Shown here piece by piece: positions 4,844 through 8,380 of a stretch of 64,000 bases of DNA. Positions within the stretch are counted from its first letter, which is position 1. Every line of letters begins with the position of its first letter. Source of the stretch: Sphingomonas paeninsulae (lineage in GTDB: Bacteria > Pseudomonadota > Alphaproteobacteria > Sphingomonadales > Sphingomonadaceae). The notes below the pieces were generated by a model. That model had not been told where the DNA came from. It did no database searches and saw only the letters and a program-made list of their open reading frames with translations. The stretch is taken from assembly GCF_003660165.1 (NCBI RefSeq), contig NZ_CP032829.1, positions 682,001 to 746,000 on the forward strand, given 5' to 3'. Made by a program: the position numbers and the translations under genes.

Positions 4844-4974
4844 CTGGATTCCTGAATTTGTGTGAGCGGCAGCTATAATGGCAGGGTTCTGCCAAATCGC
4901 GCATCAGGGTGGTGAACGAAAGATTGACCAATACCCCTCTGGCGACCGGAGCATTGCCGTGCCAAGGGAGCGAT

Positions 4975-5145
4975 ATGGCCGAACGTCCCCAAAATACCCG
5001 CAGTGGCGGAATCTTCATTGCGATCGGCGCGTTCGCAGGCGTCTTCATCGGGCGTTCCTATGGGCAGCCAACGATCGGGTTCATTAGCGGGCTGACAATC
5101 GGTGGCGTGCTGGCGCTGCTGCTCTGGCTGAAAGACCGGCGTTGA
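4975..5145 (+). CDS. Small membrane protein (56 aa)
   Basis: A 56-residue protein with a polar N-terminus (MAERPQNTRSGG), two short hydrophobic helices (about residues 12-28 and 34-50) and a basic tail (LKDRR), so an inner-membrane hairpin protein with both ends probably cytoplasmic. The ATG at 4975 is preceded by AAGGGAG at a good distance, which is better supported than the longer in-frame GTG start upstream. It converges on the S24 regulator gene, whose stop is adjacent. No function can be assigned. Confidence 0.6.
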   Translation: MAERPQNTRSGGIFIAIGAFAGVFIGRSYGQPTIGFISGLTIGGVLALLLWLKDRR

Positions 5146-5811
5146 TTATCTGAGTTTGCGACCGACCCAGACCACGCGGCCGATGAGTTCGATCTTGCTC
5201 AGGTCGCAGTCCGGCCAGCTTGGATAGGCAGCATTGTCGCTCTTGATCGTCACGCTGCGCGAAACCGGGTTGATCGCGAGCCGCTTCACATTCAGCGCAT
5301 CGTCGATCCGCAGGACATAGATACCATCGCGCAAACGGTCTGGGCCATCGGACCGGTCGACCAGAATGTCATCGCCATCGGCCAGCGTCGGCACCATCGA
5401 ATCGCCCTCGACCTGAATGACCGAAACCGATGCGGGATTGGCGGTGACCGACCGAAGCCACTTCGCATCGAAACCGATCTGGCCCGACACGCTATCCGAA
5501 TCATGGAGCGACCCCGGACCAGCCGAGGCGTGCGCCGCGATTTTCGGGATGGCGATTAACCCGGACACTCCCCGTTTTATTGCGGTTGCCGCCGTAACCT
5601 CTGGTACCGAAGGGCCGCCGAGTGCTGACTCGGGTACGCCGAAATAACGCGAGAGTGTACGGCGGTCGTTTTCGTCGAGCTTTTTCGGAACGCCCCTGCG
5701 GATGTATTGCTGAATATAGGCGGCGTTGCGACCGATCAGCCGCGACAGTGCCACATAATCCTCTCCGCGTTCACGGATCAGCCGTTCAAGTGTTTCGCGC
5801 GCATCAACCAT
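5146..5811 (-). CDS. S24 (LexA/CI-like) transcriptional repressor
   Basis: A 221-residue regulator with an N-terminal helix-turn-helix region (about residues 5-65) and a C-terminal S24 peptidase fold. The Ser-Lys dyad is present: Ser138 in VEGDSMVPTL and Lys176 in ALNVKRL, 38 residues apart as in LexA/CI. An Ala-Gly pair at about 97-98 (ASAGPGS) sits where self-cleaving members are cut, but many family members with this context are not cleaved, so autoproteolysis is uncertain. The ATG at 5811 is preferred over the TTG one codon upstream. The gene is divergent from a small ORF at 5900, and three palindromic sites lie between them, implying autoregulation. Confidence 0.87.
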   Translation of the reverse strand: MVDARETLERLIRERGEDYVALSRLIGRNAAYIQQYIRRGVPKKLDENDRRTLSRYFGVPESALGGPSVPEVTAATAIKRGVSGLIAIPKIAAHASAGPGSLHDSDSVSGQIGFDAKWLRSVTANPASVSVIQVEGDSMVPTLADGDDILVDRSDGPDRLRDGIYVLRIDDALNVKRLAINPVSRSVTIKSDNAAYPSWPDCDLSKIELIGRVVWVGRKLR

Positions 5812-5827
5812 CAAATCGACATAGCGA

Positions 5828-5880
5828 TAGGAAAACTCCTAGACAAGTAGGAAATTGCCGATGAAATAGGAAATTACCTA
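5828..5880. promoter_or_regulatory. Three tandem palindromic operator sites
   Basis: Three related 14-mers begin at 5828 (TAGGAAAACTCCTA), 5848 (TAGGAAATTGCCGA) and 5867 (TAGGAAATTACCTA). The first has perfect TAGGA/TCCTA arms and the third TAGG/CCTA arms; the middle one is degenerate in its right arm. Centre spacing is 20 and 19 bp, about two helical turns, so bound dimers would lie on one face of the DNA. They fill the 88-bp gap between the divergent S24 repressor gene and the small ORF at 5900. Binding by that repressor is inferred from position and symmetry. Confidence 0.7.
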
Positions 5881-5899
5881 TTCACGGAGTCGGGGAACG

Positions 5900-6076
5900 A
5901 TGATGTATTTGCTACGCAGGATTGAGGTTCATTTGCGCCAGACGGGAATGGCCCCCACGCGCTTTGGACGCGAGGCGGTTCGCGACCCTCGACTGATCCA
6001 TGACATGAAGCGTGGCCGCGAGCCGGGCAACGCCATCACCGCACGCATTCTCGCCTTTATCGAGTCGCGCAAATGA
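5900..6076 (+). CDS. Small basic, Cro-like hypothetical protein (58 aa)
   Basis: A 58-residue basic protein. The segment from about residue 18 to 55 (TRFGREAVRDPRLIHDMKRG and onward) resembles the short helix-turn-helix of phage-repressor-like proteins: a helix entering with FGREAV, a turn at DPR, a recognition-like helix LIHDMKRG. It starts with tandem ATG codons at 5900/5903 behind GGGGAA, and its stop overlaps the next start as ATGA. It is divergent from the S24 repressor and faces the operator array. I have no firm family assignment; DNA binding is inferred from the pattern only. Confidence 0.62.
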   Translation: MMYLLRRIEVHLRQTGMAPTRFGREAVRDPRLIHDMKRGREPGNAITARILAFIESRK

Positions 6077-6369
6077 GCCGTGACGTCAGCAATCGCCTCA
6101 TTCGCGCCTTGTCGGTCTATTTCGGGCCGCTTTCTGCTGTCGATCACCGCACGTCGAAATGGTCGAGCGCAACCTTTACAGGCACGCGCCACATGATCTG
6201 GTTCGATATTGGCCCGTGCGACAAGCTAGGCACGCTGATCCAGAATTTGCCCGAAGCCGACCTCCCGATGCCCGGCCATTTTGTCGCGGATATCGAACTG
6301 GCTGAACGCAATGATCTGCCTGAGAGTGTGCGGTTGGGACTACGCGCACTGACGATCGCGGAGGCTTAA
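6073..6369 (+). CDS. Hypothetical protein (98 aa)
   Basis: A 98-residue protein of unknown function, translationally coupled by an ATGA overlap to the Cro-like ORF upstream. It has an N-terminal amphipathic part (SNRLIRALSVYFGPLSAVDH), a central segment rich in aromatic and beta residues (GTRHMIWFDIGPCDKLG) and an acidic C-terminus. No signal peptide or membrane helix is seen. It converges with the membrane-protein gene on the other strand and overlaps its end by 4 bp. The coupling with the small ORF suggests both are controlled by the operators at 5828-5880. Confidence 0.65.
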   Translation: MSRDVSNRLIRALSVYFGPLSAVDHRTSKWSSATFTGTRHMIWFDIGPCDKLGTLIQNLPEADLPMPGHFVADIELAERNDLPESVRLGLRALTIAEA

Positions 6370-7166
6370 AGTGAAGCGAATTTCTTCAACGCACCGAGCG
6401 CCTGGCGGAAGCCGTCATGGTCAGCCCCGGACTGGGGCTGGTCATTGTCGGAAACGATCCAGTCTTTCGAAAGCGCCAGAGGGGACGGCGCGGACGCTGG
6501 AGAATCCGGGCCAGGGTCGTTCGCGGCGCGACGGGCAAGGCCGGCTTCGAGGCGGCGGATCAGCGACTGGATCGAGTCGTCATTGTCCGGCGTATCCGAA
6601 GGGGGCAGGTCGAATTCAACGGCGCTCAACGGTTTTTCGAGTTCCGGTTCGGGAGTCAGTGTGCTGTGATCGACCGCTGAAAGCGGCTCGGGCAAAGGCT
6701 CCGGCTCGGTCCGAAGAATCGGTGCCACTTCCGGTTCGATTGACTGCAGCGCCGGAGCGATTGCTTCGTCCGACATCAACGGCGCACCCAGTTCGGTTGG
6801 CGCAAAAATCGGCCGGCGCCGTCCTTCGACCTTCACGGGCTCATCCTCTTCCGAATAGCCCTCATCGTGCCACGACGGTGCCGGCTTGCTAGAAGAAGGC
6901 TTCAGCGCCTTTTCGATGAGCTCGAGGACAAGCCACAACCCACCGCCGACGACAATGAAACCAAGCGCCATCGCCAGCACACGCGCGGTCAGCCCCAGCG
7001 GCGGCGCAGCGAACGACAGAATGGATGGCAGACCGCTTTCCACAACGGCTTTGTCGAACATCCACGCGGGCATGGCCGCGACGAGGATTGCCGCAACCGC
7101 GCCGAACATGACCCCGACCACTGGGGCCAGAGGGGTGCGGCTTACGCGTCGTGCTAGTGTCACCAT
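6366..7166 (-). CDS. Membrane protein with long acidic cytoplasmic tail
   Basis: About 266 residues with two hydrophobic helices near the N-terminus (VMFGAVAAILVAAMPAWMF, then the stretch around VLAMALGFIVVGGGLWLVL) followed by a long Pro/Glu-rich, probably disordered region and a short C-terminal helix (ALGALKKFASL). I recognise no family. The start could be the ATG at 7166 or a TTG at 7172 that overlaps the stop of the upstream glycosyltransferase gene (TTGA); either way the two genes are coupled, so it may serve the exopolysaccharide system. That functional link is inference from position. Confidence 0.6.
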   Translation of the reverse strand: MVTLARRVSRTPLAPVVGVMFGAVAAILVAAMPAWMFDKAVVESGLPSILSFAAPPLGLTARVLAMALGFIVVGGGLWLVLELIEKALKPSSSKPAPSWHDEGYSEEDEPVKVEGRRRPIFAPTELGAPLMSDEAIAPALQSIEPEVAPILRTEPEPLPEPLSAVDHSTLTPEPELEKPLSAVEFDLPPSDTPDNDDSIQSLIRRLEAGLARRAANDPGPDSPASAPSPLALSKDWIVSDNDQPQSGADHDGFRQALGALKKFASL

Positions 7167-7168
7167 GA

Positions 7169-8380
7169 TCAACGATCCTGTTGCGGCCGGCGAGCAGCCA
7201 GCTTTTGATAAACAGGTTCGTAACGAGAAATGTTTGACGACCAGTTACGTTCGCGTTCAACAAACTTGCGCGCCGTTGCCCGACGTTCCTTCCAATGGCC
7301 CCGATCTTCGAAAATTGCGGCCAGCGCACGCGCTATCGCGGCCGGATCGTCGGGCGCGAACAGGGTTCCGGTAACGCCATCCTCGATCAGTTCGCGGTGG
7401 CCGCCAACATTCGAGGCCGCAACAAGCTTACCCTGCGCCATCGCCTCAAGAGGCTTTAATGGCGTAACAAGGTCTGTCAGCCGCATTTTCTTACGCGGAT
7501 AGGCCAGCACGTCGATCAGGCTGTAATAACGCTCAACCTCCTCGTGCGGCACGCGTCCGACGAAATGGATGCGTTCGGAGACGGGTGAAGCCGCCGCCTG
7601 AGCGTGCAGGGAAGTCTCCATCGGACCGCCACCGACCAACAGTAAATGTGCCTTTGGACGCGCACCAACCAGCGCAGGCATCGCGGCGATCAGGTCGTCC
7701 AGCCCCTCATAATCATAATAGCTGCCAATGAATCCGACCACATCGGCACCGTCCAGCCCGAGTCGCCGGATCAATGCCGGGTCGGGTTTCACCGGTTTTC
7801 CGAACATCCCGAGATCGACGCCATTGGGCGACACCATGATCTTTTCGGGAGTAATACCGCGCGAAACCAGATCATCGCGCAGCCCCTCGCAGATAACCGC
7901 AACCGCGTCGGCACGCCGGACGGCCAGCGTTTCGAGCGCCTTGATCGCGCGATAGCGGAGCGACCCTTCCCGCCCCGTTCCGTTACCGACGGCGGCATCC
8001 TCCCAAAAGGCGCGGATTTCGTAGAGCAGCGGCAAACCACGACGTTTCGCCACACGAAGCGCCGCCAGCGCATCGAGAACGGGGGAATGTGCGTGCAGAA
8101 TGTCGGGGCGAAATGCCTCTACTACGCTGTCGATGCGAGTCGCGAACGCCGATATCTCGGCAATTTCACGAAGCCCCTTTTTTGTATTGGTCAGCGGCGA
8201 CGTGCGGTCGAATGTTAATCCATCGAATACACCGGCGGGCGCATCGTCCTCTTGCCGCAGCCCCGTAACGCCGCGCACGTCCCACCCCTGCGCGATCTGC
8301 GCTTTCATGATCGCACGCGTGCGGAAAGTGTAGCCGCTGTGCAGCGGCAAGCTATGGTCGAGAATGTGAAGGATACGCAT
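7169..8380 (-). CDS. GT4 glycosyltransferase, exosortase-A/EPS-associated type
   Basis: A 403-residue GT-B fold glycosyltransferase. The N-terminus (MRILHILDHSLPLHSGYTFR) matches the exosortase-A/PEP-CTERM-associated glycosyltransferase group (TIGR04063). The C-terminal half holds the usual family-4 nucleotide-sugar-binding features: VSPNGVDLGMF, a GSYYDYEGLDDLI loop, and EAMAQGKLVAASNVGGHRELI. It probably transfers a sugar to a lipid-linked glycan on the cytoplasmic face of the inner membrane. The ATG at 8380 is preferred to an upstream GTG. A divergent polymer ligase gene of the same system is next door, which supports a role in surface polysaccharide synthesis. Confidence 0.85.
   Translation of the reverse strand: MRILHILDHSLPLHSGYTFRTRAIMKAQIAQGWDVRGVTGLRQEDDAPAGVFDGLTFDRTSPLTNTKKGLREIAEISAFATRIDSVVEAFRPDILHAHSPVLDALAALRVAKRRGLPLLYEIRAFWEDAAVGNGTGREGSLRYRAIKALETLAVRRADAVAVICEGLRDDLVSRGITPEKIMVSPNGVDLGMFGKPVKPDPALIRRLGLDGADVVGFIGSYYDYEGLDDLIAAMPALVGARPKAHLLLVGGGPMETSLHAQAAASPVSERIHFVGRVPHEEVERYYSLIDVLAYPRKKMRLTDLVTPLKPLEAMAQGKLVAASNVGGHRELIEDGVTGTLFAPDDPAAIARALAAIFEDRGHWKERRATARKFVERERNWSSNISRYEPVYQKLAARRPQQDR

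Follow-up and report, generated by a model that had tools for sequence, protein, structure and literature searches.

A phage-type S24 repressor locus in the chromosome of Sphingomonadaceae, probably a dedicated circuit that responds to DNA damage

The window, by which we mean the whole 64,000-nucleotide stretch of the Sphingomonas paeninsulae genome analysed here, contains a compact divergent locus of three genes. The gene for a CI/LexA-type repressor (S24) lies on the minus strand at 5146–5811, with its ATG at 5811 and its end at 5146, and encodes 221 residues. Divergent from it on the plus strand is p58 (5900–6076), an open reading frame for a 58-residue protein with the predicted fold of a Cro-like helix-turn-helix, followed by p98 (6073–6369), which overlaps p58 and encodes a 98-residue protein with a W.SATF.G.RH motif. 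A sequence-only reading had reported these three genes in a core-chromosome setting free of phage genes, and both parts of that description hold. The neighbours of the locus match Omp85/TamA-like, glycosyltransferase, Wzy_C, topoisomerase IB and mechanosensitive channel families in Pfam; the sixth neighbour (ORF 6369–7172) has no Pfam match, and none of the six scanned neighbours belongs to a phage family in Pfam. The locus thus lies among chromosomal neighbours and not inside a phage or prophage genome, and transposase genes are absent from it. The p98-side glycosyltransferase falls inside the 4-kb flank of 52 of 80 loci from named genomes, indicating that the chromosomal place is largely kept; these 80 are the best matches by similarity to the window's p58 out of at least 534 relatives confirmed in a scan with the p58 alignment, rather than a random sample. 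We also note a 78-residue, glycine-rich, membrane-like ORF at 4909–5145, convergent with S24, and similar ORFs adjoin S24 in L031 and L071.

The S24 protein was expected to be a CI-type repressor, and its sequence agrees. It matches Peptidase_S24 in Pfam (PF00717, 2.4e-16) and a transcriptional repressor family in PHROG (5e-38, residues 9–222 of the 222-residue form starting at TTG), and alignment identifies an N-terminal DNA-binding region, an A97-G98 cleavage motif and an S138/K176 dyad, a complete cleavage set. Phage records matching S24 number 316 in all, and the 12 solved structures that match by sequence, through the C-terminal half, are all LexA or UmuD.

The helix-turn-helix proposed for the 58-residue product is likewise predicted by AlphaFold2 (mean pLDDT 93.8), as a lambda-repressor-like fold of four helices, and the family shares the conserved motif FGR..DPR.V.DLR.GR. 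Foldseek matches are weak, comprising HipB, P22 c2, SinR and 434 repressor domains (TMq 0.54–0.74, E 0.85 or worse), with no solved structure matching below E 0.85. A toxin-antitoxin reading, raised by the HipB-like matches, was dropped because p98 contains no toxin family. A search of a phage collection with p58 returned seven records. The top one, from Octadecabacter Antarctic DB virus 2 (E 4e-3), is labelled a 'DNA binding protein'; the annotation of the surrounding stretch includes no repressor, and the match adds little. The own genome also carries a remote p58 paralogue (L252, G000:C3:2313100-2313267) near a resolvase-like ORF, and mobile DNA may thus carry members of the p58 family as well.

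Translational coupling of p98 to p58, also part of the original proposal, is supported: in 76 of 77 loci, the p98 start (taken as the candidate start nearest the p58 stop) overlaps the end of p58 at its stop codon. The AlphaFold2 model of p98 has a mean pLDDT of 94.2 and the order helix-strand-strand-helix-strand-strand. At the cut-offs used, p98 has no match in Pfam, NCBIfam, PHROG, PADLOC or PDB sequences; a single match (E 0.7) was returned from phages and none from plasmids. Foldseek likens it to tail-terminator/tail-completion proteins (best PDB match E 4.2e-3, TMq 0.59; best BFVD match with rmsd 5.2 Å, TMq 0.57 and E 2.2e-4), a likeness so weak that we do not accept homology to these phage proteins. 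Gene transfer agent control (RogA; PMC11150451 and PMC11409702) was considered and dropped, no link to the locus having been found. It is possible that p98 is the output of the switch.

The three sites first read at 5828, 5848 and 5867 are all of the TAGG-N6-CCTA type and are spaced by 20 and 19 bp, as described. O1 (5828–5841, TAGGAAAACTCCTA) is a palindromic predicted S24 operator over the spacer of the predicted S24 promoter, and O3 (5867–5880, TAGGAAATTACCTA) is a second such palindrome over the predicted p58 start site. The description of all three as palindromes stands for O1 and O3 and fails for O2 (5848–5861, TAGGAAATTGCCGA), which is mostly a left half-site merged with the overlapping −35 elements of the two divergent promoters. 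Its degenerate right half reads CCGA instead of CCTA in the window, and departs from CCTA at two or more of the four positions in 59 of the 75 named loci where the core can be recognised, while O1 shows no or one mismatch over eight positions in 68 of these 75. The three predicted operators are thus not equivalent. The right half of O1, the shared −35 region and the left half of O2 together form a conserved core, CCTAGACAAGTAGGA (5838–5852), which has no mismatch in 39 of 79 named loci, one in 28, two in eight and three to five in four. Conservation of the operator region among sphingomonad relatives, on which the sequence-only reading depended, is therefore found, with the core at zero to two mismatches in 75 of 79.

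Two promoters can be placed over this core. On the minus strand, the predicted S24 promoter has its −35 element TTGTCT at 5841–5846 and its −10 element TATGTC at 5818–5823, with a predicted +1 at or beside the ATG. Across loci, TTGTC stands 17 bp from a hexamer that starts with TA in 45 of 76, and an in-frame S24 start codon lies 4 to 8 nt past the predicted −10 in 63 of 76 (counted by hand); 12 of the 13 exceptions also show an altered −35. This close placement of the start codon suggests that the S24 message is probably leaderless, as is the lambda cI message. On the plus strand, column conservation points to a p58–p98 promoter with −35 element TAGACA (5840–5845) and −10 element GAAATA (5863–5868), including a near-invariant A at 5864. 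In 73 of 75 loci, TAGACA is followed 17 bp on by a hexamer with A as its second base, irrespective of the class of the third site described below. Since the two predicted −35 elements overlap, probably only one polymerase at a time could occupy them.

The gene set is spread through the family. In a first set of 59 genomes including our own, searched with p58 at a cut-off of E 1e-3, p58 was found in 32: the own genome, 30 of 34 family relatives and one of 24 from other families of the order. S24 lies nearby on the opposite strand in 26 of 30 first-set loci. The exceptions are L007, L017, where a prophage accounts for its absence, L022, a second p58–p98 pair (G033 has an S24-core-p58 locus elsewhere, L295), and L027, which has an insert of about 2 kb between the operator core and p58. 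At L293 (G024:C114:5500-10500), an insert of about 2 kb lies between the operator core and p58. In the best 80 named loci, S24 is divergent from p58 in 79 (exception L100) and p98 is matched in 78 (exceptions L048 and L074). A class-wide draw of 385 genomes yielded 29 with a p58-type match, five of the family (own included) and 24 others. The 25 loci from these 24 genomes include nine with a divergent S24 relative (L227, L229, L233, L239, L240, L241, L243, L250 and L251) and none with a p98 match, which suggests that p98 belongs to the sphingomonad version of the locus. A search of the open-licence literature on sphingomonad LexA, S24 or domesticated CI-type switches, at the level of titles and the starts of abstracts, gave no description of an S24-p58-p98 locus, a result that speaks weakly for its novelty.

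The operators appear to be dedicated to this locus. In the 64-kb window, TAGGAAANTNCCTA with up to two mismatches is found nine times against 1.33 expected, and six of the nine are O1–O3 counted on both strands. With one mismatch, TAGGAWWWWTCCTA occurs in the whole genome at O1, O3 and one further place (C3:527116), and its reversed control nowhere. A 17-bp form of the core with at most one mismatch is present in 82 of 119 family genomes, as a single copy in 81 and as two in G014, and was not found at that threshold in the other 37; the reversed control gives four matches in total over the 119. Of 30 core places examined, 29 adjoin S24, p58 and p98, and the 30th (L277) adjoins S24 only, a prophage interrupting p58. 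Single in 81 of the 82 genomes and beside the locus in the places examined, the core is thus specific for it, which argues against a regulon. A genome-wide search for further sites of this kind, which the sequence-only reading had suggested, shows no enrichment of the palindrome pattern: TAGGAAANTNCCTA with two mismatches gives 41 and 40 matches in the own genome against 100 and 82 for the reversed control, so that no regulon beyond the locus is seen. The second core-like site of G014 (L296, G014:C2:357091) has one mismatch and no adjoining S24, p58 or p98 match, and G014 is the only such genome of the 119.

A third S24 operator does not hold as a general design. Downstream of the core, the 79 named loci carry an exact GAAC-N7-GAAC in 38 cases and O3 in 27, with neither in 14 and both in none. 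Here O3 was scored as any TAGG-N6-CCTA palindrome that lies downstream of the position matching the core best and has no more than one mismatch, and the LexA box as an exact GAAC-N7-GAAC on the p58 strand, so that weaker boxes fall into the 'neither' class; the box reads on the opposite strand in one locus alone (L012), which was left out of the counts. The O3 calls in L065 (offset 50) and L081 (offset 2) are possibly chance, and the third-site calls of L009, L010 and L074, which have a weak core, are poorly anchored. Base shuffling predicts 0.0016 LexA boxes and 0.020 O3 sites per locus. Among the 75 loci whose core is recognisable, O3 starts exactly 14 bp past the core in 22 of the 26 cases that were placed, and for the LexA box this distance is 5 to 7 bp in 27 of 35; these offsets put both on the same promoter region. 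The 26 first-set loci divide into eight with O3, seven with the box and 11 with neither, and all eight virus records scored carry O3; two others, L129 and L130, have a LexA box (read by eye). A quick tree of S24 (111 rows; 41 of 103 inner branches weak) requires at least eight changes between the two states. The rows of the third-site counts, this tree and the cleavage-residue table include duplicate genomes (L002/L031, L005/L045 and L008/L083) and virus pairs (L121/L122 and L125/L131), while counts of 79 refer to named loci only.

Several observations support GAAC-N7-GAAC as the LexA box here. Copies stand just upstream of lexA in the own genome and of a uvrA-like ORF, which we take to be uvrA, and the own genome has 16 matches to GAACA-N6-GAACA against four for the reversed control. 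Read from the opposite strand, it is also the Caulobacter LexA motif GTTCN7GTTC (PMC12700426). The own genome encodes one LexA above the family cut-off besides the S24 protein. The window's own p58–p98 promoter has no LexA box, so damage control at this locus would rest only on S24 self-cleavage.

The original proposal left a choice between a domesticated phage switch and a lineage-specific stress circuit. The spread of the locus through the family speaks against the second, and the first is favoured by S24–p58 pairs that occur without p98 in phages and prophages with the same TAGGA half-sites. S24 and p58 relatives occur together in 27 of the 89 virus loci retrieved by searches with p58 or S24, none of which has p98 within the stretch retrieved, and no phage carrying S24, p58 and p98 together was found. 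Phage genes beside such pairs include an anti-repressor-like gene and a DNA methyltransferase (L117), terminases (L254 and L258), a DnaB-type helicase (L256) and genes of the exonuclease VIII type (L132 and L134); five of 20 scanned neighbour proteins have no PHROG match. In 29 S24–p58 gaps (L117, 19 further virus loci and nine outside the family), TAGGA/TCCTA occurs 52 times, compared with a mean of 7.9 and a maximum of 16 in 200 shuffles. At least two half-sites are present in 17 gaps and fewer than two in 12. This enrichment suggests that the phage pairs use the same half-site as the sphingomonads. Most simply, the sphingomonad locus would be a domesticated copy that gained p98. The S24–p58 pair of L259, outside the family, also lacks p98 and is apparently chromosomal, its neighbours presumably being mnmE and mnmG, so the direction from phage to chromosome is one that we only infer.

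Taken together, these features make it reasonably probable that Sphingomonadaceae have domesticated a phage-type immunity switch, which now works in the chromosome as a dedicated circuit responding to DNA damage. Dimers of S24 bound to O1 and to O2/O3 would cover both divergent promoters with their overlapping −35 region, repressing the leaderless S24 message as well as the p58–p98 operon. Upon DNA damage, RecA filaments would stimulate self-cleavage of S24 at Ala97-Gly98 through Ser138/Lys176 and the operon would open; in many relatives, release of LexA from the box at the O3 position may do or add the same. In this scheme p58 would be a Cro/Ner-like partner acting on the same operators and p98 the output of the circuit. 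We infer the binding, cleavage and induction of S24 and the roles of p58 and p98, like the direction of transfer, from these comparisons.

The position of p58 is open to a second reading, which we consider rather unlikely, where p58 strengthens S24 repression as a co-repressor and the outcome is graded damage control without a switch, as in UmuDAb/DdrR. That system of Acinetobacter (PMC7273328 and PMC11332147) is built alike, with a small gene that runs divergently and −35 elements that overlap each other where the repressor binds. However, p58 is itself a predicted DNA-binding helix-turn-helix conserved in one operon with p98, and its phage relatives are divergent from the repressor, in the position of Cro or Ner.

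A further reading, and an improbable one to our mind, is that S24 senses another signal, such as a ligand or another protease, and keeps its catalytic residues as structural heritage. Five S24 proteins (L025, L065, L068, L077 and L109) have indeed lost the cleavage set while the gene pair is kept. Four of these loci have neither O3 nor a LexA box, and the fifth (L065) has the doubtful O3. With 14 of 79 loci having neither site, and most cleavage-lacking S24 proteins among the loci of this kind, the wiring is not universal. Yet the Ala-Gly and Ser/Lys set is complete in all 45 LexA-class rows, 41 of 43 O3-class rows and 19 of 23 'neither' rows. Across the O3 and LexA classes this amounts to 86 of 88, and one of the two misses (L065 and L131) is a truncated record, L131. 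That a LexA box takes the position of O3 in 38 of 79 named loci also argues for control by DNA damage.

The operon is also a place where Mu-like prophages are found. Twelve virus records match S24 best (L120–L131), and in ten of them phage DNA starts in p58 or p98: inside p58 in L120, L126, L127, L129 and L130, and in the first codons of p98 in L121/L122, L124 and L125/L131; L123 and L128 contain neither core nor p58. A prophage also lies in p98 in L111, found with p58, and at the p58 start codon in genome G032, giving ten hosts with an interrupted operon after pairing two duplicates. All these insertions lie upstream of the conserved part of p98; those of L126 and L127 hardly differ in position and may go back to a single event, and for L120 the exact junction was not located. 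The remainder of p98 follows about 38 kb on in L111, and the same 5 bp occur at both prophage ends, CCGAA in L111 and GCCAA in G032 (by eye). A Mu-type transposase domain was found in nine of 12 records searched, the other three being records of 20 to 31 kb, and the transposases of the locus prophages are 48–69% identical to that of L127's record. The Mu-like prophages of the locus are those of L111 with L200, L120, L121/L122, L124, L125/L131, L126, L127, L129, L130, and L277/L294 with L017. They lie in both orientations, with the minor-head end beside p58 in L111, L125/L131, L126, L127 and L129 and the tail or endolysin end in L120, L121/L122, L124, L130 and G032. These insertions suggest a prophage hotspot or selection for breaking the operon, in a sample biased by the finding of virus records through S24 or p58; in whole genomes, a prophage interrupts one of 30 core loci examined.

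Such lysogens could have broken an SOS-triggered anti-phage or cell-fate module in which p98 is a harmful or protective effector. The ten hosts with Mu-like prophages of both orientations in p58 or the first p98 codons would fit this reading, which we nevertheless hold to be improbable as well: no PADLOC model matches S24, p58 or p98, the insertions spare the body of p98, an avoidance that loss of function by itself would not call for, and the sample is biased because S24 or p58 served to find the virus records, with L126 and L127 maybe one event. A decaying prophage remnant without function, to which the phage-like repressor and Cro-like gene might point, is extremely improbable and already contradicted, since proteins, operators and gene order are all conserved across the family.

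Returning to the domesticated switch, we tentatively raise a broader possibility, which remains doubtful, that a phage CI/Cro-type switch has become fixed in the core genome of the family, its third operator repeatedly exchanged for a LexA box and its output operon a hotspot of Mu-like prophages, either because phages aim there or because lysogens survive best by breaking it. On that view, p58–p98 would be a DNA-damage-triggered cell-fate or anti-phage effector. The domesticated switch itself would amount to a phage decision circuit retained for bacterial housekeeping across a whole family. Its promoters form a natural series of rewired versions, in which one position holds either an S24 operator or a LexA box, and this allows a direct test of how operators are exchanged between two self-cleaving repressors. 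The analysis further gives context to p98, a widely conserved uncharacterised gene, and indicates a possible insertion hotspot of transposable phages.

Among known systems, the c repressors of the transposable phages DMS3 and MP22 resemble S24 over residues 21–218 (4e-17), although at 34% identity, in a comparison that covers S24 alone; phages of this kind have a ner gene, and the sphingomonad host locus differs from theirs in lacking transposase genes. In the lambda CI/Cro region, a self-cleaving S24-type repressor faces a divergent small helix-turn-helix protein, with operators overlapping both promoters. The sphingomonad locus shares a repressor with a helix-turn-helix and an S24 self-cleavage domain, the divergent small protein p58 (a predicted fold, divergent in 79 of the best 80 named loci), operators over both predicted promoters and a predicted leaderless repressor message. 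Unlike lambda, it is chromosomal, has the coupled p98 gene and a shared −35 region, and lacks three equivalent shared operators: its middle operator is mostly a half-site, for which reason the strict three-operator lambda scheme fails, and its third is exchangeable with a LexA box.

In UmuDAb/DdrR (PMC7273328 and PMC11332147), a UmuD/LexA-type repressor under DNA-damage control is divergent from a small regulator gene, with a site overlapping both −35 elements. S24 and p58 share this divergence and the proposed control by DNA damage, and their putative site would overlap both −35 elements if the predicted promoters are right. However, Acinetobacter has no LexA and UmuDAb controls several promoters, whereas the sphingomonad genome has a true LexA, p58 is a predicted helix-turn-helix, and the core is single-copy in 81 of the 82 genomes having it and its palindrome not enriched, with no sign of a regulon of error-prone polymerase genes. 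Finally, the window locus stands apart from the alphaproteobacterial LexA regulon (GTTCN7GTTC; PMC12700426) in that it has no box and its S24 is a separate repressor beside true LexA, and the locus approaches that regulon in the 38 of 79 named relatives that carry the box before p58.
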